A stretch of DNA of 64,000 nt from the NCBI RefSeq assembly GCF_021026375.1, contig NZ_JAJNDB010000003.1:310001-374000 (forward strand). The letters run 5' to 3'. Positions 12,656 to 29,978 of this stretch are shown piece after piece (positions within the stretch are counted from its first letter, which is position 1; each line of letters opens with the position of its first letter). The translations under genes and the position numbers were made by a program. The notes below the pieces were generated by a model, which ran no database searches, was not told where the DNA came from, and was given only the letters and a program-made list of their open reading frames with translations. This stretch comes from Actinomycetospora endophytica. Its GTDB lineage: Bacteria > Actinomycetota > Actinomycetes > Mycobacteriales > Pseudonocardiaceae.

Positions 12656-14142
12656 GAACCACTCCCTTGGCTGGAAGAGGGGAACCAGCCGGTCGGACCC
12701 GGCCGGGTGTTCGTCCAGATGTGCTTGGGCTCCTGGTACTCGGCCAGGCCGGCACGTCCGAGCTCGCGCCCGAACCCGGAGTGGCCGAAGCCGCCCCACT
12801 CCGCGGCGGGCACGTACGGCCCGAAGTCGTTGATCCAGATCGTGCCGTGCCGCAGGCGCGCGGCGACCTCCTCGCACGTCCCGTGGTCGGCGGAGAACAC
12901 CGCGCCGGCCAGGCCGTACTCGGTGTCGTTGCCGATGCGGACGGCGTCGTCGAGGTCGGTGAAGGTCTCGACGGTGAGCACCGGCCCGAACGACTCCTCG
13001 TGCACGACGGTCATGTCCTGGGTGCAGCCGTCGAGGATCGTCGGGGGGTAGAAGAAGCCGTCGGCCAGGCGCGGGTCCTTCGGGCGCTCACCGCCGCAGC
13101 GCAGCACCGCGCCCTCGGCGATCCCCTTCGCGACATAGGCCTCCACCTTGTCCCGGTGCGCCGCGGAGATCAGCGGGCCGGTCTCGGTGGCGGGGTCGTC
13201 GGGCCCGCCCATGACGATGCGTTGCGCGCGTTCGACCAGGTCGTCCACCACGCGGTCGTGCGCCGACTCCTCGACGACGAGCCGCGCGCCGGCCGAGCAC
13301 ACCTGCCCGGAGTGCAGGAAGATCGCGGTGAGGGCGTTGTCGACGGCGGTCTCGTGGTCGGCGTCGGCGAAGAGCACGAACGGGTTCTTCCCGCCGAGCT
13401 CCAGGGCGATCTTCTTGACGGTCGCCGCCGCGTTCGCCATGAGGATCTTCCCGGTGGCGAGGCCCCCGGTGAAGCTGACCATGTCGACGCGGGGGTCGGT
13501 CGACAGCGGGGCGCCCGCGGTGGCCCCGGGGCCCAGGACGAGGTTCGCGACGCCGGGCGGGACGCCCGCCTCCTCCAGCAGCTCGACGAGGATGATCGCG
13601 GTGTGCGGGGTGAGCTCGCTGGGCTTGAGCACGAACGTGCACCCGGCCCCGAGCGCGGGCGCGACCTTCCAGGCCGTCTGCAGCAGCGGGTAGTTCCACG
13701 GCGTGATCAGCGAGCACACGCCGACCGGGTCGTGGACGACCTTGCTGCGCGCGGTGGCGTTGCCGGTGTCGACGAGCCGTCCGTCGTCGGTCGCCGTGAG
13801 CTGTCCGAACCACCGGAAGCAGTTCGTGATGTCGTCCATGTCGATCTCGGACTCGGCGACCCGCTTGCCGGTGTCGAGGGTCTCGGCGCGGGCCAGCCGG
13901 TCGCGGTCGCGCTGGAGCAGGTCGGCGACGCGCAGCAGCAGCGCTCCGCGCTCGGGAGCGGGGACGTTCGACCAGCGCCCGTCGTCGAACGCGGTCCTGG
14001 CGGCTCCGATCGCGCGCTCGGTGTCCGCCGGCCCGGCCTCGCTGACCTCGGCCACGAGCCGGCCGTCGGCCGGACAGCGGATCTCGCGGTGGGCGCCGTC
14101 CTCGGCGTCCGTCCACGTCCCGTCGATGTAGAGCTGCCCCAC
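12652..14142 (-). CDS. NAD-dependent aldehyde dehydrogenase (betaine-aldehyde dehydrogenase-like)
   Basis: Predicted cytoplasmic oxidation of an aldehyde such as betaine aldehyde to the acid. The 496 residues match the ALDH family. Catalytic Cys282 is in GQVCSAG and general-base Glu248 in LELGGKNP. The usual FTGS nucleotide motif reads FTGG. The GTG start has a GGAGA site five bases upstream and gives the normal N-terminus (GQLYIDGTWTDAEDG). It is the first gene of the operon and shares a 4-base overlap with the permease. The promoter region holds a long inverted repeat facing a divergent TetR gene, as in bet regulons. BetB is favoured by context. Confidence 0.88.
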   Translation of the reverse strand: MGQLYIDGTWTDAEDGAHREIRCPADGRLVAEVSEAGPADTERAIGAARTAFDDGRWSNVPAPERGALLLRVADLLQRDRDRLARAETLDTGKRVAESEIDMDDITNCFRWFGQLTATDDGRLVDTGNATARSKVVHDPVGVCSLITPWNYPLLQTAWKVAPALGAGCTFVLKPSELTPHTAIILVELLEEAGVPPGVANLVLGPGATAGAPLSTDPRVDMVSFTGGLATGKILMANAAATVKKIALELGGKNPFVLFADADHETAVDNALTAIFLHSGQVCSAGARLVVEESAHDRVVDDLVERAQRIVMGGPDDPATETGPLISAAHRDKVEAYVAKGIAEGAVLRCGGERPKDPRLADGFFYPPTILDGCTQDMTVVHEESFGPVLTVETFTDLDDAVRIGNDTEYGLAGAVFSADHGTCEEVAARLRHGTIWINDFGPYVPAAEWGGFGHSGFGRELGRAGLAEYQEPKHIWTNTRPGPTGWFPSSSQGSGS

Positions 14143-14174
14143 GGTTCTCCTGCCAGGGTCGATGTGAGCTGGGC

Positions 14175-14207
14175 GTACGAACGTACAACCGGGGTGTACG
14201 TATGTAC
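14175..14207. promoter_or_regulatory. Inverted-repeat operator between aldehyde dehydrogenase and TetR genes
   Basis: Arms 14175-14187 (GTACGAACGTACA) and 14195-14207 (TGTACGTATGTAC) are inverted copies with two mismatches across a 7-base spacer. The right arm with the next base is itself a near palindrome, TGTACGTATGTACA. The site lies 33 bases upstream of the dehydrogenase start and just upstream of a TATACT -10 box for the divergent regulator. It probably binds the TetR protein encoded next door and represses both directions. Confidence 0.75.
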
Positions 14208-14233
14208 AGGTGCGGTACCGCGGTCGGTATACT
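14203..14233 (+). promoter_or_regulatory. Promoter of the TetR/BetI-like regulator
   Basis: TATACT at 14228-14233 is a good -10 box. TGTACA at 14203-14208 is a possible -35 at a long 19-base spacing and lies inside the right arm of the inverted repeat. Repressor binding there would block RNA polymerase, giving autoregulation. The expected start site near 14240 excludes translation from the ATG at 14210. Confidence 0.55.
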
Positions 14234-14269
14234 CGTCGTGCCGATCTTGCGACGGAGAGTGACACGGAG

Positions 14270-14857
14270 ATGCGGGAAGCACCTTGGGACACGGCGGGCC
14301 GGCCGGCGGTGCGGGCCGACCCCTCCCGCCGTGAGCGGATCGCGCGCGCGGCCATCTCGGTGGTGGCCGAGCGCGGCGTCGACGGGCTCACCCACCGCGC
14401 TGTGGCGGCCGCCGCCGACGTCCCGCTCGGCTCGACCACCTACCACTTCCAGACCCTCGACGATCTCCTCGAGGAGGCCCTGCGACACGCCGCCGACGAC
14501 AACATCGGCGCGATCCGTGCCTGGGAGTCGGGCCTCGCCCCGGACGGGGCCTTCGCCGAGGCCATGACCGATCTCGTGATGGGCTACGTCGGCGAGAACC
14601 GGAGCCACACGGTCGTCGAGTACGACCTCTACATCGCCGCCCTCCATCGGCCGGCCCTCCGACCGGTCAGCGCGGCGTGGGACAACGCCCTCGTCGAGGT
14701 GTTCGGCCGCCGGACCGACCCGCTGACCGGCCGGGTGCTCGCGGGACTCTTCTGTGGCCTGCTGATGCAGTCGGCGATGGCCGATCCGCCCCCGTCCGCC
14801 GAGGCGATCCGGGAGGTCTTCCGCCGCGCCATCGAGGGTCCGCACACGGCCGCCTGA
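14270..14857 (+). CDS. TetR-family regulator, BetI-like by context
   Basis: DNA-binding repressor of 195 residues. The helix-turn-helix is at about residues 35-65 (LTHRAVAAAADVPLGSTTYHF), and the C-terminal helical half should bind an effector. The ATG at 14270 is preferred over an in-frame ATG at 14210 because the predicted -10 box lies between them and a GGAGAG site sits ten bases upstream. It is divergent from the aldehyde dehydrogenase operon and probably controls it through the shared inverted repeat. By analogy with BetI the effector could be choline or betaine aldehyde; that is inference. Confidence 0.85.
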   Translation: MREAPWDTAGRPAVRADPSRRERIARAAISVVAERGVDGLTHRAVAAAADVPLGSTTYHFQTLDDLLEEALRHAADDNIGAIRAWESGLAPDGAFAEAMTDLVMGYVGENRSHTVVEYDLYIAALHRPALRPVSAAWDNALVEVFGRRTDPLTGRVLAGLFCGLLMQSAMADPPPSAEAIREVFRRAIEGPHTAA

Positions 14858-15310: not shown

Positions 15311-16561
15311 TCACACCGGCGGCGCGAGCTCGTGCCGCTCGGCCAGCCAGGTCTCGATCTCGTCCGCGGCCAGCTGGTTGCCCGTCGGCTCGCCGGGCGC
15401 GATCGCCCCGCCGAAGTGGGTCCCGCGCACCGCGACGTGGGTGAGGTCGTCCGCGCCGAGCGCCCCGACCATGCGTGCCGAGTCGGCCGGGAACGCCGCC
15501 TGGTCGCCCGTGAGCTCGACGAACAGCGTCGGGACCCGGACGCCCGGGGCGCAGCGCGCGAAGTCCGCGTACGAGCTCAGTCCCGACCACGTCGAGAGCC
15601 AGGCCTCCGGCGTGGTGAGCCGGCCGAACCCGACCTGCCCGTAGTTGATCAGGTCCGGCCGTGCGCCGAACAGCGATCCGTAGGGCCGTTCGCTGGGGTC
15701 GAGCGAGAGGTCGACCGTCCGCGGGTCGGCGTCGGTGCGGAACACCGTGATCAGCTGCGGGGCGAGGGCGCGGCGCCGGTCGGCGGCGGTACCGGTGCGC
15801 TGGTGGGCGGCCCGGGCGTCCGCGGTGCGGGCCACCAGGGCGCGGGCGGTGGCGTCGATGCGGGCGACCCGGTCGTGCTGGGCCGCGCGGTAGCGCGCCA
15901 GGAACTCCGGCGCGTACGACGAGCTCGCGGGCGGCTCCGCGAACCCGTTGGCCGGGTCGAACGGGTCCAGCTCTCCGACCGCGGCCAGCGGATCGCGCTC
16001 GTCCGACACCGAAGGGTCGATGCAGCCGAGCAGCAGGCGCCCCTGCCCCGGGTGCGGCGCGAGGAAGACGACGCCGTCGGTCATCGGCATCTCGGCGTCG
16101 GCGAGCTTCGTCGGCCGGCCGCCCGGGGTGGTGGCGATCCGGTCGCGTCCCGCCAGCCCGGCCTGCTCGAGGTAGTAGGCGAACAGCGTGCCGCCCCCGG
16201 AGTGCCCGAGCGGCACGATCGCGGCGAACCCCTGCTCGCGCAGGAAGACCATGCCCGCCGCGACGTCGAGCAGGGCCTGCTCGTGCACCAGCGTCAGGTC
16301 GTTGTTCACCGAGCGGGTGTGCTGGGTCCAGACCGCCACGCCCGCCGCGAGCAGGGCGGGCACCAGGGCGTGGTGCGTGAGGTCCTGGCGCGGGTGCATC
16401 AGGCAGACCACCGTCCGCGCTCCCGGCACCGTGGCCAGCACGCCGCGCACCGTCGCGCCGTCCGCCGTCGTCAGCTCGTGGACGCCGGTGACGGTGGCCG
16501 CGGGCCGCTCCCCCGCGGCGATGTAGCGGCCGGCGCCGAGCTGGGAGGTGGGCGTGCTCAT
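15311..16561 (-). CDS. Alpha/beta-hydrolase fold protein
   Basis: Predicted esterase, thioesterase or C-C bond hydrolase; the substrate is unknown. The 416-residue protein carries the nucleophile elbow GHSGGGTLF with Ser in the centre, an early VVCLMHPRQDLTHHALVPALL strand-loop, a likely Asp/Glu in LFVELTGDQAAFP and a likely catalytic His in GTHFGG. The ATG overlaps the TGA of an 81-residue unknown gene by four bases, so the two are translationally coupled. It is the last gene of the leftward catabolic operon that begins with the HyuA-type gene. A role in a late hydrolytic step of that pathway is an inference from position. Confidence 0.82.
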   Translation of the reverse strand: MSTPTSQLGAGRYIAAGERPAATVTGVHELTTADGATVRGVLATVPGARTVVCLMHPRQDLTHHALVPALLAAGVAVWTQHTRSVNNDLTLVHEQALLDVAAGMVFLREQGFAAIVPLGHSGGGTLFAYYLEQAGLAGRDRIATTPGGRPTKLADAEMPMTDGVVFLAPHPGQGRLLLGCIDPSVSDERDPLAAVGELDPFDPANGFAEPPASSSYAPEFLARYRAAQHDRVARIDATARALVARTADARAAHQRTGTAADRRRALAPQLITVFRTDADPRTVDLSLDPSERPYGSLFGARPDLINYGQVGFGRLTTPEAWLSTWSGLSSYADFARCAPGVRVPTLFVELTGDQAAFPADSARMVGALGADDLTHVAVRGTHFGGAIAPGEPTGNQLAADEIETWLAERHELAPPV

Positions 16562-16803
16562 GCCGGGTCGACCCGCAGGGCGTTCTTGTCGTGCTGCACG
16601 ATCCGCCCGCCCCCCACACCCGCGACGCAGCTGTACCAGACCGCGTGCCGGCAGCCGGTCGCGCGGCGGTCGACGACGATCGCGCCGTCGGCGGAGATCT
16701 CGAAGTACGGTCCGAGCTTCCCGACGGTGACCGCGGGGTCCTCGGCGGCGACCTTCGCCACCGTGGTGTTCTCCGGGACGTCGAGGACGTAGAGCGCGGT
16801 CAC
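16558..16803 (-). CDS. Small conserved-looking protein of unknown function, 81 aa
   Basis: I do not recognise this family. The 81-residue protein starts VTALYVLDVPENTTVAKVAAE and has two cysteines, in TGCRHAVWYSCVAG. No signal peptide or membrane segment is seen. It is joined by 4-base overlaps to both neighbours: its GTGA overlaps the VOC gene stop and its TGA overlaps the hydrolase ATG. This tight coupling argues that it is a real gene working with them, perhaps as a small subunit or cofactor-handling partner. That role is speculation. Confidence 0.7.
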   Translation of the reverse strand: MTALYVLDVPENTTVAKVAAEDPAVTVGKLGPYFEISADGAIVVDRRATGCRHAVWYSCVAGVGGGRIVQHDKNALRVDPA

Positions 16804-17465
16804 TGCCGGGCCCCCTCGGTGGTCCGGGACAGCTCCCAGTCCGCCGCCCGCTCGACGATCAGCTCGGCCTTGCGGGCCAGGAGCTTGCCGAAGCTGGGCT
16901 CCGGCTCGGCCACGACGTCGAGCAGCGCGTCGATCGTCAGGGTGGCGTCGAGGTCCTCCTGCGGCGTCACCGGGCGCATCGCGCGGGTGAACTCGACCAT
17001 GTAGCCGTTCGGGTCGTGCGTGTAGATCGACTCGATGGTCTCGTGCTGGATCTGCATCTCGACCGGCCACGCGGAGTCGTCCAGCCGCCGGCGGTACTCG
17101 AGCAGGTCGTCTTGGTCGTCGACGTGGATCGCCAGGTGCCGCGACCGGACGAAGAACTCCGGCACCTCGGGCCCGAAGCCCGCGTAGACGTCCCCGCGCT
17201 CCCGGTCGTGGATCGGCTCGAGGCCGAAGTAGTAGAAGAACGCGATCCGGTCGTCGTTGCCGATGTCGAAGAAGAAGTGGATGAAGTCCGGGTGGTCCTC
17301 CGGGCCCCAGCCCGCGGCGCAGATCGAGTGCACCACCGGGAACCCGAGGGTGTCGCGGTAGAACCGCACCGTCGCCGCCGGATCGAACGTGGGGAACGCG
17401 GTGTGGTCCACCCCGCGGACCTTGTGCTCGAGCCCCGTGGCGTCCCGGCTCGTCCCGTCTGTCAT
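16800..17465 (-). CDS. VOC-superfamily protein (extradiol dioxygenase/glyoxalase-like)
   Basis: Vicinal-oxygen-chelate fold protein of 221 residues, likely metal dependent. Candidate metal ligands are the His in GVDHTAFP near residue 19, the His in RHLAIHVDD and the Glu in GYMVEFTRA, the spacing expected of one VOC module pair. A C-terminal extension of about 50 residues is helical. In an aromatic catabolic operon a ring-cleaving extradiol dioxygenase is a natural guess, but isomerases and glyoxalases share this fold. The ATG is the first Met giving a normal VOC N-terminus; a longer upstream frame is Arg/Pro-rich. It overlaps the 81-residue gene by four bases and lies 74 bases after the TetR stop. 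Confidence 0.82.
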   Translation of the reverse strand: MTDGTSRDATGLEHKVRGVDHTAFPTFDPAATVRFYRDTLGFPVVHSICAAGWGPEDHPDFIHFFFDIGNDDRIAFFYYFGLEPIHDRERGDVYAGFGPEVPEFFVRSRHLAIHVDDQDDLLEYRRRLDDSAWPVEMQIQHETIESIYTHDPNGYMVEFTRAMRPVTPQEDLDATLTIDALLDVVAEPEPSFGKLLARKAELIVERAADWELSRTTEGARQ

Positions 17466-17539
17466 GTCCTCGACCTCCCGCGTCGTCGCACGATCGTCCT
17501 CGGCAACGAGGTCGAGAGTACGGTCGTTCGGCGCTGGCG

Positions 17540-18277
17540 TCAATCTTTCGACGGTGGCGACGAAGTCGTGATGATGTGCTCGAGGTAGTCGAGGTCCTGG
17601 CGCAGCAGGTGCAGGGCGGCGGCGGGGTCGTCTGGGCGGGGTGACTCCGGCGTGCGGTCCGGGCTCTGGGCGACGAGCGCCACGGCCATCTCCGCCATCT
17701 GGTCGGCGACCTCGTCGGCCGACTGGGCGCCGCCGGGGTGGAACCACCAGGCGACCCAGTTGCACATCCCGATGAGCGCCAGCGCGGTGGTCCGGACCGG
17801 CCGCGGCCGGAACTCCCCGCTGCGCACGCCCTGGTCGACCACGCGGACGAAGCCGTCGAGCACCCGTCGCTTCGCGGTCTCGTGCGCCGTCGCCAGCTCC
17901 GGCGGCAGCTCCGACTCGGAGCGGATGACGAGTCGGAACCGCGCGGAGTGGTCCGCCTGCCGGGCGGCGATCAGCCGGACGAGCTCGCGCAGCTTGTCCG
18001 GGGCGTCGAGATCGCGCCCGGCGATCTCCTCGGCGGCGTCGGCGGGACCCGAGGTGATCTCGGTGACCAGCTGGGCGAGCAGCTGGTCCTTGTTCTTGAC
18101 GTAGTAGTAGAGCGCCGAGCGGGTCATGCCCATGGCGTCGGCGACGTCCTGCAGGCTCGTCCCCGCGAAGCCCCGCTCGGCGAACAGCCGCGTGGCCTGC
18201 TCGTATATCTGGGCCTCGACGAGCTCACGGCGGGCCGACGCACGACCGTGGGGAGCGACGGATTCCGCGGAGCTCAT
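17540..18277 (-). CDS. TetR-family transcriptional regulator
   Basis: Predicted repressor of 245 residues. The N-terminal DNA-binding domain includes GTSLQDVADAMGMTRSALYY at about residues 40-60, followed by YVKNKDQLL, the usual link to the ligand-binding helices. The C-terminal part matches the long TetR types that often bind CoA esters, though this cannot be read from sequence alone. It sits inside the leftward operon, 25 bases after the maleate-isomerase-like gene and 74 bases before the VOC gene. It is therefore the best candidate to control the promoter ahead of the HyuA-type gene. Confidence 0.88.
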   Translation of the reverse strand: MSSAESVAPHGRASARRELVEAQIYEQATRLFAERGFAGTSLQDVADAMGMTRSALYYYVKNKDQLLAQLVTEITSGPADAAEEIAGRDLDAPDKLRELVRLIAARQADHSARFRLVIRSESELPPELATAHETAKRRVLDGFVRVVDQGVRSGEFRPRPVRTTALALIGMCNWVAWWFHPGGAQSADEVADQMAEMAVALVAQSPDRTPESPRPDDPAAALHLLRQDLDYLEHIITTSSPPSKD

Positions 18278-18302
18278 GACGGGCGACGATACCGACGCCG
18301 GA

Positions 18303-19058
18303 TCAGCGGACCGGCGTCCCGGAGCGCTGCCGCAGCAGGGACCCGGCGTCGGGGAGGTCGGCGCGCACACCGAGGCTGCGCAGCAGGCAGAACGCCCCCG
18401 CCGTCGCCGCCGAGAGCACCGGCAGGCCGAACTCCGCCTCGGCGACCGGGATCAATGGGAGCGACGGCATCTGCACGCAGGCGGAGATCACCAGCGCCTC
18501 CGCCCCGGTCAGGTCGAGACCGCGGGCGGCCGCCATCACGCGGTCGCCCGGGATGCACCCCACGTCGGCGTTGTCGGCCACCTCGAGCGCGACCCAGTCG
18601 AGCACCTCCAGACCCTCGGCCTCCAGGTAGGCGACCACCTGCTCGGCGAGCGGGCGCATGTACGGCGTCACGAGTGCGATGCGCCGTGCCGGCATCGCGT
18701 GGAGCGCCTCCACGAGAGCGCCGGCGCTGGAGACGAGCCCGGCCGGCAGGCCCCGCTCCCGCAGCTGCGCCGCGACCTCCTCCTCGACCCGTCGGTGCTC
18801 GCCGGGACCGGCTGCCATCACCGCCACCAGGCACGCGTAGAGCAGCGCGTCCACGCCGGCGTCGGCGAGCTCGTCCACGCAGCGTCCGCGCTGGGCGTTC
18901 ATCGCGGCGAGCTCCTCCGGCGACACCGTGTGCATCCGCATCCGGCTGCCGTGGAAGGAGAACGTCGCGTCCGCGTGGTGGGCGAGCAGGGCCGGGATCT
19001 CGGTCTCGACCGTGACGTTCGAGCTCGGGACGATCATCCCGATGCGGTGGTGAGTCAC
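18303..19058 (-). CDS. Asp/Glu racemase superfamily protein, maleate isomerase-like
   Basis: Predicted cofactor-free isomerase, with maleate to fumarate as the most likely reaction. The 251 residues open with IGMIVPSSNVTVETEIPALL, the phrase typical of maleate cis-trans isomerases. Two candidate active-site cysteines are seen in LYACLVAVMAAG and VISACVQMPSL, as the two-cysteine mechanism requires. Arylmalonate decarboxylase and ectoine-pathway EutA relatives share the fold, so the exact reaction is not certain. The GTG start overlaps the stop of the ligase gene by four bases. Maleate is an end product of gentisate-type and nicotinate-type ring degradation, which fits the operon. Confidence 0.82.
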   Translation of the reverse strand: MTHHRIGMIVPSSNVTVETEIPALLAHHADATFSFHGSRMRMHTVSPEELAAMNAQRGRCVDELADAGVDALLYACLVAVMAAGPGEHRRVEEEVAAQLRERGLPAGLVSSAGALVEALHAMPARRIALVTPYMRPLAEQVVAYLEAEGLEVLDWVALEVADNADVGCIPGDRVMAAARGLDLTGAEALVISACVQMPSLPLIPVAEAEFGLPVLSAATAGAFCLLRSLGVRADLPDAGSLLRQRSGTPVR

Positions 19059-20779
19059 GTCAGGGCTCCTTCTGCACGCAGGGTCTCGGTGATGTCCGCC
19101 GCCATCGCCTTCTTGTCGAGCTTGCCGATCCTGGTGCGGACCATCTCGGCGACGACCTCCACCCGCTCGGGCCACTTGAAGGTGGCGACCTCGAGTGCCC
19201 GCAGGTGGGCGCGGACGTCGTCGAGCGTGATCGGAGTGCCGTCGGTGACGACGAAGGCGCAGCCCCGCTCCCCCAGCCGCGGGTCCGGCATCGCGACGAG
19301 CGCCGCCTCGACGATCCGCGGGTGCCGCAGGAGGAGGAGCTCGACCTCCTCGGCGTTGATCTTCTCGCCGCCGCGGTTGATGAGGTCCTTGATGCGGCCC
19401 TCGATCGAGATCGCCCGGTAACCGTCGAGCAGCCGCACCGCCGCGAGGTCCCCGGTGCGGTAGAAGCCGGTGGACGTGAACGCCCCGCCCTCCGCGCCCG
19501 GGACGTTGCGCTCCTCGGCCGCGTAGTAGCCCCGCAGGGTGTACGGACCCCGCGCGCAGAGCTCCCCCACGCCGCCGTCGGGCACCGGCTCCTCGGTCCC
19601 CGGCTCGAGCAGGACGACCTCGTCGTGGGTCGAGATCGGGACGCCGACGGTGGTGCGGCGCAGCTCTGGTGAGGTGCCCAGCGGCGTCACCAGGAACAGG
19701 CCCTCGGCCATCCCGAACAGCTGGCCCACCCAGGCCCCGTGGCCGGTCACCGTCGCGAAGAGGTCCTCGGAGACCTTCGCCCCGGAGAGCACGACGATCC
19801 GCAGCGACCGCGCGAGCTCGGGGTAGGCGGGGTGGTCCGGCGCGCGGTAGTGCACGTGGCCGAACAGCACCGACGTCGTCCGCTCGGCCGCGAGCAGCGG
19901 CAGCGCGGTGTCCAGGTCGTGGCCGGTCAGCACCAGGCACGCTCCGACCGTGTGGGGCGCGTGCACGCCGCACACGACCCCGGCGTTGTGGATCACCGGG
20001 ATGAGGTGCCCGACGCGGTCGTGCTCGGTCCAGCCGAGCGTCCCGGCGTAGGCGCGGGCGTTGTACCAGTACTCGGCGTGGGCCCGCGGGATGAGTTTCG
20101 GGACGCCGGTGGTGCCGCCGGAGAGCTGGAAGACCGCGACGTCGTCCGGGTTGAGACCGGACTGGATCGCCTCGACCCGGGCGCGGGCGTCCGCCGGGTC
20201 GATCTCCGTACCGAGCTCGAGCAGGTCGACGGCGTCGTCCGGGAGCGGGCCGTCGGCGCCGAGGACGAGGATCCGTCCCAGCGTCGGGTGGTCCCGGGCC
20301 TGCTCGACGGCGAACGCGACCAGGTCGATGCCACCCAGAGATCGACCATGTGACAGCCCGGCCTCGACGAGGTGGGCCCGCGCGCCGACCGTCCGGCTGA
20401 TCTGGCCGACCTCGTGGCCGCGGTGCGCCGCGAGCGTCGCGACCGGGACGAGGCCGGCCTTGAGCATCGCGTACCAGGCGATCACGGTCTCGAGCCGGTT
20501 CGTGGCCTGCACGATCACCGGGTCGCCCGGTTCGAGGCCCGTCCCCGCCAGGCCGGCGGCGATCCGGTCGGTCCGGGCGTCGAGCTCGGCGTAGGTCAGT
20601 CGCCCCTCGGCGGCGACGACGGCGTCGCGGTCGGCGAAGCGCAGCGCGGCGGCATGGAGCTCCTCGCCGAGGGTCCGCGTGCCCCACAGCCCGGCGTCCC
20701 GGAAGGTCGTGACGAGGTCGTCGGGGTAGCGGACCCGGAGGGCGTCCCAGCGCGAGCGGTGGGCCTGGTCGGTGCTCAC
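19055..20779 (-). CDS. Aryl acid AMP/CoA ligase (2,3-dihydroxybenzoate or salicylate ligase-like)
   Basis: ANL-superfamily enzyme expected to activate a carboxylic acid with ATP, giving an acyl-AMP or acyl-CoA. The 574 residues contain the P-loop SGGTTGVPKLIPRAH, an adenylation core and the C-terminal GKLDKK with the likely catalytic lysine. Phrases such as AMLKAGLVPVATLAAHRGHE resemble EntE-type dihydroxybenzoate and salicylate ligases. The GTG start overlaps the flavoprotein stop by four bases, so ligase and hydroxylase should be made together. In Streptomyces the salicylate-to-gentisate route (sdgA-sdgC) uses such a ligase before a CoA-level 5-hydroxylase, which this pair resembles. The true acid is unknown. 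Confidence 0.85.
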   Translation of the reverse strand: MSTDQAHRSRWDALRVRYPDDLVTTFRDAGLWGTRTLGEELHAAALRFADRDAVVAAEGRLTYAELDARTDRIAAGLAGTGLEPGDPVIVQATNRLETVIAWYAMLKAGLVPVATLAAHRGHEVGQISRTVGARAHLVEAGLSHGRSLGGIDLVAFAVEQARDHPTLGRILVLGADGPLPDDAVDLLELGTEIDPADARARVEAIQSGLNPDDVAVFQLSGGTTGVPKLIPRAHAEYWYNARAYAGTLGWTEHDRVGHLIPVIHNAGVVCGVHAPHTVGACLVLTGHDLDTALPLLAAERTTSVLFGHVHYRAPDHPAYPELARSLRIVVLSGAKVSEDLFATVTGHGAWVGQLFGMAEGLFLVTPLGTSPELRRTTVGVPISTHDEVVLLEPGTEEPVPDGGVGELCARGPYTLRGYYAAEERNVPGAEGGAFTSTGFYRTGDLAAVRLLDGYRAISIEGRIKDLINRGGEKINAEEVELLLLRHPRIVEAALVAMPDPRLGERGCAFVVTDGTPITLDDVRAHLRALEVATFKWPERVEVVAEMVRTRIGKLDKKAMAADITETLRAEGALT

Positions 20780-22368
20780 GGCTGCTCCTCCCGGACGGCC
20801 ACGAGATGGGTGCGGTCGGCGGCGAGCCCGTCGGCGAGGTCGGTGCGCAGGTCGGCCGGCCCGACCACCACGACGAGGGCGTCGGTCCGGCGCCGGACCA
20901 GCTCGGCGACCTCGAAGCGGGTCAGGACGCTGCCGCGGTCGTCGCCGCCGTCGAACCACACGACGTCGGCGGTGGCCGCGGCCAGCTCCGCGCGGCGGAC
21001 CGCGTCGTCGACGTGCTGCTCGGTCCCCGCCGGCCGGGCGTCGGTACCGAGGTCGACGACGGCGGCGCCGAGCGCCTCGGGATCGTCGGGGACGGTCCGG
21101 GAGTCGAAGCCGCGGGAGCCGAGGGGGTCGCCCTCGGCCAGCGGTTCCTGGCCGGGCGCCGACGGCCGCAGCGGCCGCGCGAGCACCCACTCCGCCAGGG
21201 AGTCGCCGCTCGGCTCCTCCCCCGCCCACTGCGTCAGCGCCGCGTGCACGACCTCCGGCGAACCGCCGGCGAACCGGTCGAGCGGCACGTTTCCCGCCCG
21301 GCTCATGTACGCGACGAGCAGCTGCTCGACCGGCAGTTCCACCCGCTCCGGGAACGTCTCCCACCAGCGGCGCGAGCGTTCGGCGATGTCCTGCAGCCGC
21401 GCGACGGCGGGTCGGCGGACCGCGGTGTAGGCCTCCAGCGCCGCCTCGAGGTCGTCGTGGGCACCGAGGGCGTCGACCAGCGCGATCGCGTCCTCCATGG
21501 CCAGCTTCGTGCCGGAGCCCACCGAGTAGTGCGCGGTGTGGGCGGCGTCGCCGAGCAGCACGACGTTGCCGTGGTGCCAGTGCTCGCAGCGCACCGTCCG
21601 GAACTGCAGCCAGCGGGTGCGGTTGCCGATCAGGCGATGGCCCCCGAGGTGCTCGGCGAACGCCTCCGACAGGTAGGCCAGCGCGGTCTCGTCCGACTCG
21701 TCCGCCGGGGTGGCCGCGGTGGTCTCGTCGAACCCGGCCGCCCGCCACGTCGCCTCGTCGGTCTCGACCAGGAAGGTGCTCCGGGTCGGCGAGTACGGGT
21801 AGGCGTGCGTGACGAACGTGCCGTGCTCGGTGTGGGCCGGCGCGAACAACGCGTGGTCGAGCGCGACGTCCGTGCCGGCCCAGAGGTACCAGCCGGAGCC
21901 GGTCTCGACCTCGGCGCCGAAGGCCTCCGGTGCGGCGGCGCGGGTGGCGCTGCCGACGCCGTCGGCCGCGATCACGAGGTCGGCGTCGAGGTCCTCGGCC
22001 CGGCGGCGCACACCGAACTCGAGCTTGACCCCGGCGTCCTCGGCATGACGCTGCAGGACCGCCAGCAGCTCCGCCCGCCCGACGGCGACCAGGCTCGAGA
22101 CGTCCATCCCGGCCTCGCGGCCGGCGACCCGCATCCGCATGTCGTGCGAGTACGAGCACGCGAGGATGTCGTGCAGGGTCGCGGGGTCGGCCTCGGAGAG
22201 CTTCCGCTGGGTGCGGGCGGCGAGACCCACCCCGAACCCGAAGGTCTGGTCGGGCACGCCCTGCTCGTGGACGACGACCTCGCAGTCGGGCCGGGCGAGC
22301 TTGAGCAGCCGCGCGGCGTAGAGCCCTCCGGGGCCCCCGCCGAGCACGGCGACGCGGTGCAGCGTCAT
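20776..22368 (-). CDS. FAD monooxygenase, salicylyl-CoA 5-hydroxylase / 2-aminobenzoyl-CoA monooxygenase-like
   Basis: Predicted flavin hydroxylase acting on an aryl-CoA. The 530 residues start with the FAD motif VAVLGGGPGGLYAARLLK and carry FGFGVGLAART, EHGTFVTHAYPY, STFLVETDEATW, FRTVRCEHWHHGNVVLLGDA and SVGSGTKLAMEDA. This string of phrases is characteristic of salicylyl-CoA 5-hydroxylase and the monooxygenase domain of 2-aminobenzoyl-CoA monooxygenase/reductase. The C-terminal 130 residues look degenerate and do not form a recognisable oxidoreductase domain, so this is closer to the stand-alone hydroxylase. It lies 13 bases after the HyuB-type gene and overlaps the ligase gene by four bases. 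Confidence 0.87.
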   Translation of the reverse strand: MTLHRVAVLGGGPGGLYAARLLKLARPDCEVVVHEQGVPDQTFGFGVGLAARTQRKLSEADPATLHDILACSYSHDMRMRVAGREAGMDVSSLVAVGRAELLAVLQRHAEDAGVKLEFGVRRRAEDLDADLVIAADGVGSATRAAAPEAFGAEVETGSGWYLWAGTDVALDHALFAPAHTEHGTFVTHAYPYSPTRSTFLVETDEATWRAAGFDETTAATPADESDETALAYLSEAFAEHLGGHRLIGNRTRWLQFRTVRCEHWHHGNVVLLGDAAHTAHYSVGSGTKLAMEDAIALVDALGAHDDLEAALEAYTAVRRPAVARLQDIAERSRRWWETFPERVELPVEQLLVAYMSRAGNVPLDRFAGGSPEVVHAALTQWAGEEPSGDSLAEWVLARPLRPSAPGQEPLAEGDPLGSRGFDSRTVPDDPEALGAAVVDLGTDARPAGTEQHVDDAVRRAELAAATADVVWFDGGDDRGSVLTRFEVAELVRRRTDALVVVVGPADLRTDLADGLAADRTHLVAVREEQP

Positions 22369-22381
22369 GGGACGGCGTCTC

Positions 22382-24703
22382 CTAACGGGAAGCGTCGGCG
22401 AGCACGCGGCTGGTGCGGACGACGTCGTCGACGTGGTCGACCGGCACGACGGCCGTCCACAGCGCGGTGAAGCAGCCGGGGCAGCAGTACTGGCGGAAGT
22501 GGACGGCCTGGTCGACGTAGAGCTCGGCCGACGACGCGACCTGCGGTCCCGCCTCGGTCACCGGGCCCTCGTGGCGCACCAGGTCGAGGTCGCCGACCGA
22601 GCCCGACCCGAGCACCGTCGAGCAGTGCCGGCAGGCGACCTGCGCGTCCGCGCCGTGGCCGACCGCGACGAGGTTGTCGTCGAGGCGGCGCCCGTCGGCG
22701 ACGTCCACGGTGGTCCGGGACGCCTCGCCGGCGCCGGCGCGGGTGCGGCGCACCTCGCGCAGTTCCTCCCGACGTCGGCGGGTGGCGTCGAGATCCGGCG
22801 CCCCGGTGGCGTCGAGGATGACGCCGTAGCCCACGGTGGCGTGCTCGGCGCTGACCTTCTGCTCGCGCACGTCGCGGGCGACGTCCTCGGGCTCACGCGT
22901 CAGCGGGTCGCCGTAGCCGCCGCCGCCCTGCCAGAACATGGTGAAGACCTCGCCGGGCGCGACGTAGGTCTCGCCGTAGCAGGGGCAGAGCTCCTGCTCG
23001 CCGCCGACCTCGTCGAGCCCGGCGGGCAGTCGGCCGCCGGCCAGCATCGTCGTGAGGTCGCTCCCGCGGGCGATCTTCTCCACGCCGGTGTTGCCGGGGT
23101 AGCCGCCGGCGAGGCCGTTGTTCTGGCTGACGGCCTTGCCCGCCGAGGCCAGGACCAGCCCGATCGGGAAGCTGGTGCCGTGCGGGGTGATCGCCATGCT
23201 CGCGGCGACGCCGCCACGACGTCGTCCGGGGCCGCCGGAGTCGGGCTCCTCCCGGCGCCACAGGGCGAGGACCGGGTAGAGGAACTCGGTCATCTCGACG
23301 TCCGGGACGCGACCGAGCGGGATGCAGAACAGCCCGCCGGTGTCCATGCCGTCGGCCTGCGGCTGGGCCCCGTAGCCGCCCGCCATCGGGTCCATCATGA
23401 TCGACAGGAACGGGTTCGGGACCGGGCCGCGCTCGTCGAGCCCGGCGATCACCGCGGTGTCCCAGGTGCCGCAGCAGGTGGCCTGCACGTGGGCGTCGAG
23501 CGCCGTCGACTGGTCGAGCATCTGGCTCAGACACTCGGCGACGAGGTTGCCGGTCAGCCACGCCGGGCCGATCGGGCCGCGGCTCACCGCGGCCGGGAAG
23601 CTCGCGTTGTTGATCGTGCCTTCCTCGGCGACCAGGTCGAAGCAGCGCATCAGCCCGCCGGCCGACCACGGGATGTCCCCGGCGAGGATCGGCAGCAGCG
23701 CGAGCATGACCCCGCCGCGCATCCCGGCGTAGGTGCAGTTGATGACGCCGGCCTGCGGGTCGGTGCCGGTGAAGTCGAGCGTGAGGTGGTCGTCGGCCTT
23801 CGTCATCGCGACGGTGATCTTGTGCAGGTTCCGGTCGCCGGTGTGCGACTGGTCCTGGTAGCCGGTGGCGTGCCACGTCCCGTCGGGCAGGTCGCGCAGC
23901 TTCCCGCGCAGCCGCGACTCGGCGTCGGACATCATCCGCTTCATCACGGCCTTGACGGTGTCCGCGCCGTACTGGGCGATGACTGCGAGCAGCCGGTCCC
24001 GGCCGACGGTGTTGGCGCCGACCTTCGCGCGCAGGTCGAGTCCGATCATCATCGGCACCCGCGAGCGGCGGACCCACATGTCGGCCACGTCGTCCTGCAG
24101 CAGCCCGTCCCGCACGACCTTGACCGGTGGGGTGGGCAGCGACTCGGAGAACACGTCCTGCGCGGCCGGGGAGAACGACCCGAGCCCGACGCCGCCGAGG
24201 TCGGGCTGGTGGGCGATCGCCGAGGTCCAGCCGAAGAGCTTCCCCTCCCAGAACACCGGCTGGTAGACCATCGCGTCGTTCTGGTGCAGCCCGCCGCCCA
24301 CCCACGGGTCGTTGGTCAGGAACATGTCGCCCTCGACGATGCCGGGGTTCGTCGCGCGGTGCTGCAGCGTCCAGTAGATCGCCAGGTCGACGGCGCCGAC
24401 CAGCATCGTGTTGTAGAGCCCGACCTGGACCTCCTGGCCCAGCTCGTCGCTGACCGCGAAGTCGAAGTCGTTGGCGTCGGTGACGATCGGCGAGCCGGAC
24501 ATGCGCTTGAGCGCCTCGCCCATCTCGTCGGTGACCGACCAGAGCCGGTGGCGCACCACCTCGTAGGTCAGCGGGTCCAGGGCGTCGATCTGCTCCTGGG
24601 TCACGGTGTGGACCGGGAGGCTCGCCGGCAGCTGGGCGGCCAGCGTGGCGGGGTCGGTCGGGCGGCTCGAGAACCTCTCGGAGCCGGGGACGGCCATGGT
24701 CAT
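22382..24703 (-). CDS. Hydantoinase B/acetone carboxylase alpha-like subunit with gamma-like zinc-ribbon tail
   Basis: Large subunit of an ATP-dependent hydantoinase, oxoprolinase or carboxylase-type complex. The 773 residues contain an HyuB core (about residues 35-665; landmarks DMFLTNDPWVGGGLHQND, GWTSAIAHQPDLGG and WQGGGGYGDPLTREPEDVA). A separate C-terminal domain of about 90 residues has a CRHC pair and, some 50 residues on, a CCPGC group in FRQYCCPGCFTALW, resembling the free gamma subunit of acetone carboxylase. Such a fusion points to a carboxylase of acetone or acetophenone type more than to a hydantoinase. The ATG has GGGAG upstream and lies two bases after the HyuA-type stop. Substrate unknown. 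Confidence 0.85.
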   Translation of the reverse strand: MTMAVPGSERFSSRPTDPATLAAQLPASLPVHTVTQEQIDALDPLTYEVVRHRLWSVTDEMGEALKRMSGSPIVTDANDFDFAVSDELGQEVQVGLYNTMLVGAVDLAIYWTLQHRATNPGIVEGDMFLTNDPWVGGGLHQNDAMVYQPVFWEGKLFGWTSAIAHQPDLGGVGLGSFSPAAQDVFSESLPTPPVKVVRDGLLQDDVADMWVRRSRVPMMIGLDLRAKVGANTVGRDRLLAVIAQYGADTVKAVMKRMMSDAESRLRGKLRDLPDGTWHATGYQDQSHTGDRNLHKITVAMTKADDHLTLDFTGTDPQAGVINCTYAGMRGGVMLALLPILAGDIPWSAGGLMRCFDLVAEEGTINNASFPAAVSRGPIGPAWLTGNLVAECLSQMLDQSTALDAHVQATCCGTWDTAVIAGLDERGPVPNPFLSIMMDPMAGGYGAQPQADGMDTGGLFCIPLGRVPDVEMTEFLYPVLALWRREEPDSGGPGRRRGGVAASMAITPHGTSFPIGLVLASAGKAVSQNNGLAGGYPGNTGVEKIARGSDLTTMLAGGRLPAGLDEVGGEQELCPCYGETYVAPGEVFTMFWQGGGGYGDPLTREPEDVARDVREQKVSAEHATVGYGVILDATGAPDLDATRRRREELREVRRTRAGAGEASRTTVDVADGRRLDDNLVAVGHGADAQVACRHCSTVLGSGSVGDLDLVRHEGPVTEAGPQVASSAELYVDQAVHFRQYCCPGCFTALWTAVVPVDHVDDVVRTSRVLADASR

Positions 24704-24705
24704 GG

Positions 24706-26823
24706 TCAGGCTCCCTGGTTCTGGGTCGGGCGGATGGTGAGGTTGCCGAGCTGGTCGACGGTGCCGGTGCGTCCGGCGGGCACGACGACGGTGGTGGTGG
24801 GGACCTCGATCACCGCGGGCCCGGTGATGACGTGGCCGGCCCGCAGCGCGGCGTAGTCGTAGATCGGGGTGTCCTCGTAGCCGCGGCCCACCTGCAGGAA
24901 CACCGGCCGGCGGGACGCCTCGGCGACGGCGGGGTCCGGGCCGTCGCCCGCGTCGAGGGGCGGCAGCTCGGGGGAGAACGGCAGCACGCCCCGGCCGCGG
25001 ACGCGGTAGGTGATCGCCTGCACGCCGGCCTCGCGGAAGCCCGAGCCCTGGCCGAAGAGCTCGGCGTAGCGGGTCTCGAAGCGCGCTGCCGCCTCGTCGA
25101 GCGCCGCCGCGTCGAGCGGGCCGCCGGTGACCGGGACGGTGACCTCGGCCAGCTGCATCGCGTAGCGCATGTCGAGCTCGCGGGTGATCTCGACGGCGTC
25201 GAACTTCAGTCCCTGGCGGTCGAGGCCCTGCCGGACCTGGTCCTCGAGCTGCGCGAACGACTTCTCCGCGCGGACCGGGTCGATCGGCAGCGTGGCGGGG
25301 TCGGAGAGCTCGGCGGCGAGCTCGATGTCCGACGAGGCCAGGCCGTAGGCCGAGAACGCCGACGCGACCGCGCCCAGCGGGACGACGACCTCCTCGACGC
25401 CCAGGTGCGCGGCGTACGCGGCGCAGAACGCGGGCCCGGAGCCGCCGAAGGCGTAGAGCACGAAGTCGCGGGGGTCGTAGCCGGCCTCGACGACGGTCTT
25501 GCGCAGCAGGTCGCCGGTCTGGGCGTTCTGCGCGGCGTGGATGGCGGCCGCGGCGTCCTCGACGGACAGTCCGAGCGGCTCGGCGATCCGGGTGCGGATG
25601 GCCTTGCGGGCCTTCTCCACGTTCAGGGCCTTGCGGCCGCCGAGCAGACCCGTCGTCGGGAGGATGCCGAGCACGAGGTTGGCGTCGGTGTTGGTCGGCT
25701 CGGTGCCGCCCTGGTCGTACGACGCCGGGCCGGGGACCGCGCCCGCGCTGTGCGGCCCGATCCGCAGGTTGCCGCCCGGGTCGACCCAGGCGATCGCGCC
25801 GCCGCCCGACCCGATGGCGTGCACCCGCAGCGTCGGGACGTTGATCGGGTGGTGGTTGATGACCGTCGTCGTCTCGCGCTCCGGCTCGCCGTCGACGACC
25901 ATGCCGACGAGGAACGTGGTGCCGCCCACGTCGGTCGAGATGATGTTGCGGTGCCCGAGCCGGCGGCCGAGCGCGACCGAGCCGATCACACCGCCGGTGA
26001 GGACCGAGCCGACGGTGCTGATGGCCTGGGCGGGTGCCTCGGCGGCGGCGACCGCTCCCCCGTTGCTCTGCATGACGAGCAGCGGTCCGGAGAGTCCGCG
26101 CTCGCGCAGGCTCGACTCGAGGTTGGTCAGGTAGTCGCGCAGCCCGGGCCCGACCTGCGTGCTCATGATCGTCGTGGAGTGCCGGGCGAACTCGCGGATG
26201 CGGGGGCTGACCTCGCTGGAGAGCGCGACGAACACGTCGGGGTCGATCTCGTGGACGAGCTCACGGATGCGGCGCTCGTGGGTCGGGTTGCGGAACGCCC
26301 AGAGCAGCGAGACCGCGATGGCGCGGACGCCGTCGGCCAGCAGCGTGCGGACGCGGTCGCGGGCCTCGTCCTCGTCGAGCGCGACGACGACCTCGCCGTC
26401 GCGGTCGATCCGCTCGGTGACCTCGAGGGCGTGCCGTTTGGGGAGCAGGTGGTGCTGCTTGTCCTGGGCGAGGACGTGCTGCAGTTCGTGCGGGGAGCGG
26501 CCCAGGTACCGGCCCTCGACGTTCATGATGAAGATCGAGTCCCGGTGGCCCCGCGTCGTCAGGAACCCGACCTCGGGGACCTTGCGCTGCACGAGCGCGT
26601 TGAGCGACGAGGTCGTGCCGTGGGCGATGTGGTGGGTCTCGGCCAGCATCGCCTCCACCGACTTCCCGAGCTGCTCGGCGAGCAGGTCGAGCACGTCGAG
26701 GACCCCTTGCGAGTAGTCGGGAGGGGTCGACGGGGCCTTGGCGGCGACGATCGAGCCGGAGTCGTCGTCGAGTACCGCGTCGGTGAACGTCCCGCCCACG
26801 TCGACGCCGATCACGTAGGCCAT
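24706..26823 (-). CDS. Hydantoinase A/oxoprolinase family ATPase subunit (acetone carboxylase beta-like)
   Basis: ATP-using partner of the downstream HyuB-type protein; together they should phosphorylate a carbonyl or enol substrate for carboxylation or ring opening. The 705 residues begin with YVIGVDVGGTFTDAVLDDD (HyuA N-terminal ASKHA-type phosphate motif). A second DVGGTTFLVGMV follows near residue 300, then VHAIGSGGGAIAWVDPGG and VPGPASYDQGG, typical of HyuA and acetone carboxylase beta. The ATG at 26823 is chosen over a GTG two codons upstream because GAGGAG is then seven bases away. It is the first gene of the operon, behind a good promoter with 20-base-spaced repeats. Confidence 0.87.
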   Translation of the reverse strand: MAYVIGVDVGGTFTDAVLDDDSGSIVAAKAPSTPPDYSQGVLDVLDLLAEQLGKSVEAMLAETHHIAHGTTSSLNALVQRKVPEVGFLTTRGHRDSIFIMNVEGRYLGRSPHELQHVLAQDKQHHLLPKRHALEVTERIDRDGEVVVALDEDEARDRVRTLLADGVRAIAVSLLWAFRNPTHERRIRELVHEIDPDVFVALSSEVSPRIREFARHSTTIMSTQVGPGLRDYLTNLESSLRERGLSGPLLVMQSNGGAVAAAEAPAQAISTVGSVLTGGVIGSVALGRRLGHRNIISTDVGGTTFLVGMVVDGEPERETTTVINHHPINVPTLRVHAIGSGGGAIAWVDPGGNLRIGPHSAGAVPGPASYDQGGTEPTNTDANLVLGILPTTGLLGGRKALNVEKARKAIRTRIAEPLGLSVEDAAAAIHAAQNAQTGDLLRKTVVEAGYDPRDFVLYAFGGSGPAFCAAYAAHLGVEEVVVPLGAVASAFSAYGLASSDIELAAELSDPATLPIDPVRAEKSFAQLEDQVRQGLDRQGLKFDAVEITRELDMRYAMQLAEVTVPVTGGPLDAAALDEAAARFETRYAELFGQGSGFREAGVQAITYRVRGRGVLPFSPELPPLDAGDGPDPAVAEASRRPVFLQVGRGYEDTPIYDYAALRAGHVITGPAVIEVPTTTVVVPAGRTGTVDQLGNLTIRPTQNQGA

Positions 26824-28112: not shown

Positions 28113-29096
28113 TCAGCGCCGCCGCGCGAGCGTCAGCCCGAAGCGCGCGCCGGGGTCGGTGACCCAGTGCGCGACGTCGAACCCGGCGGTGTCGAGCTCG
28201 GCGGCCACGCCCTCGCGCGTGAACTTCGTCGAGATCTCGGTGCGCATCTCCTCGCCCGCCGCGAACTCGACGGTGAGGTCGAGCGCCGGGACCTGCACCG
28301 TCATCGGGCGACGGGCGCGCACCCGCATCTCGATCCGGCTCGCCTGCGGCACCCACACCGCCGCGTAGGAGAACCCGTCGACGTCGAAGTCCGCTCCGAG
28401 CACCCGGTTCAGCACGGTCAGCGCGTTGAGCTCGAACTCCGCGGTGACCCCGGCCGCGTCGTCGTAGGCCGCGACGAGCGTCTCCTCGTCCTTGATCAGA
28501 TCGGTGCCGACGAGGAAGTGCTCCCCGGGATCGAGTGTCTCGGAGAGCGCCTCGAGGAAGCGGCGGCGGTCGTCGGGCTCGAAGTTGCCGATGGTCCCGC
28601 CGAGCAGCACCACCAGCCGGCTGCCGACCTTCGGGACGCTGCGGAGGTCCGCGATGAAGTCCCCGACGACGCCGTGCACGTCGAGATCCGGGTAGTCGGC
28701 GACGAGCCCGGGGACGGCCTCCTCGAGCGCCGACGCCGAGACGTCGACCGGGATGTAGTGGCGCAGGTTCCCGGTCCGGGAGAGCGCGTCGAGCAGCAGC
28801 GTCGTCTTGGTCGACGACCCCGAGCCGAGCTCGACGAAGGTGTCGGCACCGGTCAGGCGGGCGATGTCCTCCGCCCCGAGCGCGAGGGCGTCGCGCTCGG
28901 CGGTGAACGGGTAGTACTCGGGCAGCGCGGTGATCTGCTCGAACAGCTCCGAGCCGCGCGCGTCGTAGAGCCACTGCGGCCGCAGGACCTTCGGGGTCGA
29001 TGTCAGGCCGGTGCGGGCGTCGGCGCGCAGGGCGGCGTCCGCGTCGGCCTCGGTGAGGTGTACGTCCAGGGCGGCCAGGGTCCCAGGAGTGTTCAC
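28113..29096 (-). CDS. egtD: L-histidine N-alpha-methyltransferase EgtD
   Basis: First enzyme of ergothioneine synthesis: it adds three methyl groups to histidine using SAM, giving hercynine. The 327 residues match the DUF2260/EgtD family. LRPQWLYDARGSELFEQITA and LPEYYPFTAERDAL form the family signature near the N-terminus, FVELGSGSSTKT is the SAM loop, and LVVLLGGTIGNFEPD follows. The GTG start gives the usual length but has no strong ribosome site. It lies 105 bases after egtC and probably belongs to the egtABCD unit. Confidence 0.94.
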   Translation of the reverse strand: MNTPGTLAALDVHLTEADADAALRADARTGLTSTPKVLRPQWLYDARGSELFEQITALPEYYPFTAERDALALGAEDIARLTGADTFVELGSGSSTKTTLLLDALSRTGNLRHYIPVDVSASALEEAVPGLVADYPDLDVHGVVGDFIADLRSVPKVGSRLVVLLGGTIGNFEPDDRRRFLEALSETLDPGEHFLVGTDLIKDEETLVAAYDDAAGVTAEFELNALTVLNRVLGADFDVDGFSYAAVWVPQASRIEMRVRARRPMTVQVPALDLTVEFAAGEEMRTEISTKFTREGVAAELDTAGFDVAHWVTDPGARFGLTLARRR

Positions 29097-29966: not shown

Positions 29967-29978
29967 GGGGGCGCCGGG

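Follow-up and report, generated by a model that had tools for sequence, protein, structure and literature searches.

We analysed a 64,000-nucleotide stretch of the Actinomycetospora endophytica genome (the window), in which nine minus-strand genes running from position 26823 to 15311 encode HyuA, HyuB, an SdgC-like flavoprotein, an EntE-like ligase, a maleate isomerase, a TetR regulator, a VOC protein, an 81-residue protein (u81) and an alpha/beta-hydrolase-like protein. We propose that this cluster specifies a catabolic route at the level of coenzyme A (CoA) thioesters, fed by an ATP-dependent carboxylase and ending in the conversion of maleate to fumarate, a reading to which we give a probability of about 0.45. 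The features that carry it, read from sequence, are the gene content and its conservation, the placement of HyuAB on the carboxylase side of its family, the match of the isomerase to a solved relative, and conserved residues of catalytic type. A preliminary description of this DNA had noted nine leftward genes with many 4-base overlaps, and such overlaps do occur at four of the eight junctions (hydroxylase-ligase, ligase-isomerase, VOC-u81 and u81-hydrolase), the others being gaps of 2 (HyuA-HyuB), 13 (HyuB-hydroxylase), 25 (isomerase-TetR) and 74 bases (TetR-VOC). Most of the gene identities named there fit family models or solved structures, with two refinements, namely that HyuB is a beta-gamma fusion and that u81 weakly resembles MmoB/DmpM. 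Pfam and NCBIfam models back HyuA, HyuB, the flavin adenine dinucleotide (FAD) monooxygenase, a DHB-AMP-ligase type, the Amdase family, TetR and VOC; none of the nine proteins reached an NCBIfam cut-off.

Conservation of the nine-gene set

Among 200 genomes of the order, 42 (own included) match the hydroxylase at E up to 1e-60. Seven matches outside the own genome stand at 57–61% identity (six over approximately 500 residues, one over 410 of 530), and the next tier of full-length matches lies at 42–44%. All seven of the top-tier matches adjoin the other eight genes in the 20 kb stretches taken around each, with genes cut at the stretch edges in several cases (HyuA in L039, L041 and L044, the hydrolase in L040, HyuB in L043; L-numbers denote the stretches compared), while the HyuB of L044’s genome (G026) sits just beyond the edge. 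L045, which has a 44% hydroxylase match, carries seven cluster genes with HyuAB absent from the stretch, and its genome likewise gave no match to HyuB at E up to 1e-80.

A VOC-profile scan of named genomes gave a broader view, based on the best 80 of 134 confirmed relatives and hence biased to near relatives, in which all nine genes occur in 52 of the 80 VOC-centred stretches. Presence was highest for u81 and the hydrolase (80 each), followed by TetR (77), ligase (76), isomerase (74), hydroxylase (73), HyuB (61) and HyuA (59), where each count takes the best tblastn match within the stretch and may at times have picked a paralogue, above all for TetR. Nine of the named stretches measure less than 20.5 kb (L051, L071, L073, L103, L107, L109, L116, L124 and L128), and because the cluster crosses the stretch edge in L050, L051, L052, L055 and L056, the HyuAB genes of these five may lie just outside. 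Gene calling yields none in the lower-GC stretches L113 and L121, so that gene-family tallies are lower bounds.

The genes of 58 complete loci (the 52 plus six from further genomes) are arranged in nine ways, the most frequent of which (30/58) sets TetR-hydroxylase-ligase-HyuB-HyuA divergent from isomerase-VOC-u81-hydrolase, two runs that we read as corresponding to an upper and a lower route, and the window’s order is common to three of the 58. The 4-base overlaps recur at VOC-u81 in 83 of 88 cases and at u81-hydrolase in 77 of 88. Since content is kept while order is shuffled, the nine-gene set is most likely a functional unit, and its conservation is well above chance. The complete set is found in many actinobacterial genera, including Actinomycetospora, Pseudonocardia, Amycolatopsis, Rhodococcus, Gordonia, Williamsia, Nocardia and Mycolicibacterium. 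The co-occurrence of the hyuA-hyuB-hydroxylase-ligase block, which the preliminary description had offered as a check, is evident in both searches, and its joining of a carboxylase-like enzyme to aryl-CoA genes is borne out as a conserved unit. A cluster of such composition was not described in the titles and abstract openings searched, a literature set that is thin in subscription journals.

HyuAB and its fused gamma domain

Residue conservation was assessed among proteins of at least 70% of the window protein’s length. Counting the rows with a residue at each position, HyuA retains D8 and D15 in 59/59, R138 in 61/61 and D298 in 62/62, and within its GxxPGP motif the later glycine aligns in 62/62 and the first in only 5/62 (the motifs compared follow PMC8453981). 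In HyuB, the metal tetrad D79, H140, D143 and H165 is present in 63/63. With the phosphate-site aspartates of HyuA and the metal tetrad of HyuB both conserved, HyuAB has what kinase and coupling chemistry would require.

The last 130 residues of HyuB contain two cysteine pairs, C691-x2-C694 and C741-x2-C744, in all 13 rows of a first alignment and all 63 of a larger set. A plain PDB search with the 13-row gamma-domain profile did not find a carboxylase chain, and a plain scan of 5 of the 13 gamma-domain rows gave no PF08882 match. The relation emerged only from profile-profile comparison with hhalign against ten PF08882 acetone-carboxylase-gamma segments, which came from 6 of 149 genomes in the phylum; this gave 97.8% (E 1.3e-12, score 73.8), while no score above 13.9 came from 20 column shuffles and the reversed profile scored 17.8, the controls being shuffles and reversal rather than other zinc-ribbon families. 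One of the ten segments (L139/L150; 44.9 bits against a cut-off of 21) is a bridging case, since it forms the end of an 801-codon HyuB-like frame. According to PMC5214803, a gamma subunit with four conserved cysteines is present in Apc and Acx and in no hydantoinase complex; this published absence, taken with the gamma homology, makes the earlier label ‘acetone-carboxylase-like’ the right one.

The tree of HyuB agrees with that label. It comprises 53 cores, has long branches and is unrooted, and a branch with 100/99 support places all the Acx, Apc and fused-gamma rows together on one side; of the ‘Hyd’ rows, which lack a visible fused gamma, 22 lie on the opposite side and two (L157, L162) on the gamma side. 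Cluster HyuB rows together with the close relatives L108 and L154, whose gamma part forms its own reading frame, make up a single clade (100/99). Judged from sequence, HyuAB is therefore placed on the carboxylase side of the family, of which few members have been characterised according to PMC5214803. HyuB-gamma fusions or neighbouring separate gamma frames also occur in other actinobacterial contexts (L150, L154, L108, L155 and L156), a branch of the carboxylase family of which we found no description. The L154 genes (L183) adjoin genes read, by eye and without models, as protocatechuate-pathway genes.

Set against known enzymes, the window’s complex resembles acetone carboxylase AcxABC in having one alpha, one beta and a four-cysteine gamma in alpha-beta-gamma gene order with the beta metal tetrad, and differs in its gamma fused to beta, its separate tree clade and its aryl-CoA gene neighbours. 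Acetophenone carboxylase ApcABCDE shares the gamma homologue, a similar beta-core length and an operon with a CoA ligase gene (PMC5214803), whereas the window cluster has a single HyuA gene, no alpha-prime or epsilon gene, and scores below the NCBIfam Apc cut-offs. Caprolactamase CapAB and the hydantoinases share the alpha-beta fold and the ATP and metal sites and give the best NCBIfam scores, but are two-subunit enzymes without a gamma (PMC5214803), unlike the window’s HyuB. In addition, HyuB has a GGYP / ADxxELLAAG-like stretch that is common to Acx and Apc and gapped in the CapB alignment.

Proposed acid activation, ring hydroxylation and lower route

The ligase scores 363 bits with TIGR02275 (cut-off 724), its closest solved relatives are 2,3-dihydroxybenzoate- and salicylate-AMP ligases, and it retains H264 and N265 in 89/89 rows, a His-Asn motif that we assume to be functional, and K553 in 88/88. 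Ligases longer than 450 residues from 83 VOC-bearing stretches fall into two classes by a motif (S/T-G-x-K vs GGQ) that presumably lines the acid pocket. HyuAB lies in the stretch of 66 of 71 S/T-G-x-K ligases vs 1 of 12 GGQ ligases (Fisher p 3e-9, uncorrected for ancestry), and the opposite trend is seen for aldehyde dehydrogenase (4/71 vs 7/12, p 5e-5), an esterase family (0/71 vs 3/12, p 0.002) and alcohol dehydrogenase (0/71 vs 2/12, p 0.02). The S/T ligases with no HyuAB in the stretch are those of L050, L056, L100, L113 and L127, of which L050 and L056 are at a stretch edge. That ligase class tracks HyuAB suggests that HyuAB acts upstream of the ligase and makes the acid that it activates, which supports the earlier proposal that the carboxylase-like enzyme supplies the ligase. 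The distributions of HyuAB, aldehyde dehydrogenase, esterase and alcohol dehydrogenase fit a common core fed by alternative acid-making routes, the transporter discussed below excepted.

The hydroxylase is nearest to PRK08255, salicylyl-CoA 5-hydroxylase, and scores 325 bits with NF006101 over residues 5–362 (cut-off 1078). In a quick tree of 23 of 66 type-A rows, its clade is separate from the classical sdg-type and OYE-fused enzymes. The hydroxylases of HyuAB clusters form one clade (Shimodaira–Hasegawa-like approximate likelihood ratio, SH-aLRT, 99) with those of five clusters that have an AAHS-type transporter, a name taken from a model match below cut-off, and no HyuAB (L067, L097, L115, L122 and L124), and the diverged HyuAB clusters L060 and L073 branch outside it. 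The C-terminal extension of the hydroxylase (window 20776–21282) is far more variable than the FAD domain and, by eye, could be what is left, in shrunken form, of the OYE-type domain found in related enzymes.

The sdgA-sdgC route converts salicylate to gentisate. Like the window, three classical-looking clusters of sdg type (L046, L048 and L049) place an EntE-like ligase close to an SdgC-like flavoprotein; the pair belongs to the same superfamilies, with the window’s hydroxylase in a separate clade and scores below cut-offs. All three add a CoA-synthetase-like and a gentisate-dioxygenase-like gene, and L046 and L048 add FAH-like and maleylpyruvate-isomerase-like genes, all absent from the window cluster, which has HyuAB-gamma, VOC, u81, hydrolase and maleate isomerase instead. 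Models run on L048, the only one of the three so scanned, gave 107.5 for the maleylpyruvate isomerase family (cut-off 50), with the FAH and acetate-CoA-ligase types below their cut-offs. A gentisate 1,2-dioxygenase was not found among the nine cluster proteins with Pfam or NCBIfam, as previously stated for the cluster, and the own genome, which is 96.67% complete, yields at best a match of 33.5 bits covering 64 positions of the model; the cut-off is 442.1, and the L048 enzyme, at 276.6 bits, likewise does not reach it.

For the maleate end, anticipated in the preliminary description, the isomerase matches 2xec, a ‘putative maleate isomerase’, at E 5e-103 and thus has a close solved relative, along with two cysteines, C76 and C194 (83/83), which we take to be catalytic; the residue aligned with C194 is C in 2xec and A in 2xed. 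The VOC protein has H21, H63, H110, H141, Y148 and E158 in 88/88 rows, which we take to be the metal triad (2-His-1-Glu) and acid-base residues of type I extradiol dioxygenases, and since these six are invariant, ring cleavage by it is plausible. Its best solved match, 9u42, is labelled just ‘Glyoxalase’. For u81, PF02406 (MmoB/DmpM) gives 17.2 bits (gathering cut-off 25), with six of nine members matching at E up to 1, and hhalign against 11 MmoB/DmpM segments from 10 of 149 genomes gives 78.6% and a score of 31.6, vs at most 14.9 in 30 shuffles, over the N-terminal half only. This likeness is odd, because a diiron hydroxylase was not recognised among the nine proteins. The hydrolase has no Pfam or NCBIfam family, with chance-level matches only at E up to 10; we presume an alpha/beta hydrolase from its GHSGG elbow and conserved S121 (89/89), D353 and H382 (88/88 each), and PLSDB annotates homologues as alpha/beta hydrolase on two plasmids. 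In L047:4147-10639 a ligase and a flavoprotein are combined in another way, accompanied by FAH-like and VOC-like genes, and that FAH-like/VOC-like pair (fam45, fam44) recurs near the cluster in L088:16842-18662.

Proposed pathway and competing readings

For the substrate, the order of steps, ring cleavage by the VOC protein and the roles of the hydrolase and u81, we infer the following. HyuA (the kinase, alpha) and HyuB-gamma (beta plus gamma) would phosphorylate an enolisable substrate and add bicarbonate, giving a carboxylic acid; the chemistry of the family points to a beta-keto acid or, as the aromatic counterpart, to an o-hydroxyaryl acid, so that a phenol would give a salicylate-type acid. 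The EntE-like ligase would then form the CoA thioester, the SdgC-like flavoprotein would hydroxylate the ring to a gentisyl-CoA-type product, and the VOC protein, perhaps with u81, would open it. The hydrolase would split the maleylpyruvate-like product (free or as thioester) into maleate and a pyruvate unit, and maleate isomerase would yield fumarate. In the textbook maleylpyruvate route isomerisation precedes hydrolysis, and the final steps would here be swapped. HbzF of P. alcaligenes is reported to hydrolyse maleylpyruvate directly, with maleate and pyruvate as products (PMC5658364), and Acx and Apc convert a ketone via an enol phosphate to a beta-keto acid (PMC8453981, PMC5214803). We favour a phenol-type compound as the substrate class: a phenol is a fixed enol, salicylate can be seen as a beta-keto acid in aromatic form, and ortho-carboxylation of a phenol would give a salicylate-type acid that fits the EntE-like ligase and the SdgC-like hydroxylase. 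In its most specific form, the proposal is that in aerobic actinobacteria a two-gene alpha/beta-gamma carboxylase adds CO2 ortho to a phenol hydroxyl with ATP, followed by a CoA-level gentisate-type route, ring opening by VOC with an MmoB-like partner, maleate and fumarate; that it holds in every part is doubtful.

Several observations weigh against the proposed route. HyuA scores higher with the caprolactamase model CapA (529.6, cut-off 1000) than with ApcC (422.8, cut-off 1500), and the best NCBIfam score of HyuB is likewise a caprolactamase (CapB 224.3, cut-off 1000, vs ApcD 187.3, cut-off 1500). The counts linking ligase class to HyuAB ignore shared ancestry, and 7 of the 15 genomes with a HyuAB-less stretch have a HyuB match elsewhere (E up to 1e-80), three of them at 74, 75 and 88% identity. 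AAHS-type transporters occur with both ligase classes (12/71 S/T-G-x-K, 4/12 GGQ; Fisher p 0.23), and the imported compound may therefore already be an acid, while a P450 resembling that of L053 (30–100% identity) in 8 of 69 HyuAB-bearing stretches makes oxidation before or beside the route possible. The VOC protein matches extradiol models only weakly (TIGR03213 19.6, cut-off 366; HsaC 19.2, cut-off 450; E about 5e-4) and matches the fosfomycin-resistance models FosF and FosK equally weakly (E 5e-5 and 3e-4). The isomerase is absent from 6 and the hydroxylase from 7 of the 80 VOC stretches, partly through truncation. Lastly, two plasmids show parts of the lower route in other company: on an S. 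chartreusis plasmid (L201), the isomerase-VOC-u81-hydrolase-ligase block is separated by two transposase genes from a neighbouring set annotated as cupin, FAH and mycothiol-dependent maleylpyruvate isomerase, and an M. avium plasmid (L199:9974-10866) has the VOC-u81 pair beside a P450 and a PDR/VanB reductase. Since L201, as annotated, has both lower routes, the block need not replace a gentisate route; each may handle its own substrates, or their combination may be a recent mosaic. The earlier claim that the VOC protein must cleave the ring is accordingly plausible from its extradiol-type residues and loses its necessity to the annotated cupin route on L201.

The ligase change is accounted for better by an aryl-ketone route, in which HyuAB-gamma would carboxylate an aryl methyl ketone (e.g., 4-hydroxyacetophenone) and so form an aroylacetate in the manner of acetophenone carboxylase. 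The ligase would then give aroylacetyl-CoA, and thiolysis or hydrolysis would supply the hydroxylase with an aroyl-CoA, from which an NIH shift, a known rearrangement, might lead to gentisyl-CoA. This would account for a ligase motif that differs with HyuAB when both kinds of hydroxylase share one clade. It has precedents in Apc, which carboxylates acetophenone and has a benzoylacetate-CoA ligase gene in its operon (PMC5214803), and in the aerobic Hpe pathway of Rhodococcus rhodochrous GD02, where carboxylation, an acyl-CoA ligase and a beta-keto hydrolase act on hydroxyphenyl ketones (PMC9618137, PMC13101465). Hpe resembles the proposed route in its aerobic actinobacterial carboxylation and acyl-CoA ligase, and differs in its biotin-dependent carboxylase with a separate kinase; a hydroxylase, VOC protein or maleate isomerase is not named in the accessible parts of those papers. 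A thiolase similar to two queries is, however, present in just 3 of 69 HyuAB-bearing stretches, so that linked thiolases are wanting, and the cluster hydrolase, being found also where HyuAB is absent, is not aroylacetate-specific. We consider the ketone route unlikely.

A second alternative concerns the lower half, where the isomerase-VOC-u81-hydrolase block would cleave no gentisate-type ring, VOC-u81 would act on a CoA ester or a P450 product, and an unlinked dioxygenase would open the ring. The cupin set on L201 favours it, as does the M. avium plasmid, in whose stretch no isomerase, hydrolase or ligase matches were found; the partial 33.5-bit dioxygenase match in the own genome and the invariant extradiol-type residues argue against it, and we judge it unlikely too. 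Least probable is a hydrolytic HyuAB, an ATP-dependent enzyme acting on a lactam, imide or hydantoin; it would open the ring of an N-heterocycle to an acid or maleamate-type compound within a pathway that degrades a nitrogen heterocycle, and the caprolactamase scores and the occurrence of maleate isomerase in nicotinate-type pathways would favour such a role. Against it stand the fused gamma, a carboxylase feature absent from hydantoinases according to PMC5214803, the position of gamma-bearing HyuB on one side of the 100/99 branch, and the failure of Pfam and NCBIfam to recognise an amidase family among the nine proteins; the literature searched held nothing matching a citrazinate-like or nicotinate-like N-heterocycle route.

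The cluster (Table 1) directly adjoins the ergothioneine genes egtD, egtC, egtB and egtA upstream (window 28113–32701), each above its NCBIfam cut-off. Downstream, one run (9502–14857) holds choline-dehydrogenase-, urea-carboxylase-system-permease- and betaine-aldehyde-dehydrogenase-like genes, all below cut-offs, together with a TetR-like reading frame (14309–14857) that points away from the choline-dehydrogenase-like run and has no NCBIfam match. Judged by NCBIfam, these flanking genes look unrelated to the cluster. Farther off, a gene run at 42142–48645 resembles, from the gene calls, a suf Fe-S assembly cluster. A link to propane monooxygenase, raised by amidohydrolase-, DUF59- and alcohol-dehydrogenase-like genes (named by reading) near L038 and L094, was rejected: the set occurs in only 2 of 69 HyuAB-bearing stretches, and no gene read as a monooxygenase was found in the upstream part of L038. 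By reading, the own genome has an apparently complete propane-monooxygenase set on another contig.

Table 1 Cluster features by position in the window.
Feature	Positions	Strand	Basis
HyuA	24706..26823	-	Pfam/NCBIfam; conserved residues
HyuB/beta subunit with fused C-terminal gamma domain, 773 residues	22382..24703	-	Pfam; metal tetrad
Fused gamma domain of HyuB, four-cysteine zinc-ribbon type (C691, C694, C741, C744)	22385..22786	-	hhalign vs PF08882
SdgC-like FAD monooxygenase, 530 residues, probable aryl-CoA hydroxylase, variable C-terminal extension	20776..22368	-	NF006101; tree clade
EntE/DhbE-type acyl-adenylate ligase, 574 residues, probable aryl-acid CoA ligase	19055..20779	-	TIGR02275
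Maleate cis-trans isomerase, 251 residues	18303..19058	-	2xec match; C76, C194
TetR-family regulator, 245 residues	17540..18277	-	PF00440, PF17932
Single-domain VOC protein, 221 residues, candidate ring-cleaving dioxygenase	16800..17465	-	PF00903; conserved residues
u81, 81 residues, MmoB/DmpM-like effector candidate	16558..16803	-	weak PF02406; hhalign
Alpha/beta-hydrolase-like protein, 416 residues, candidate C-C or thioester hydrolase	15311..16561	-	GHSGG elbow

If true, the proposed route would mean that aerobic ATP-dependent carboxylation serves aromatics outside ketone metabolism, would provide an alternative finish to a gentisate-type route, and would add a beta-gamma fused branch to a sparsely characterised carboxylase family.

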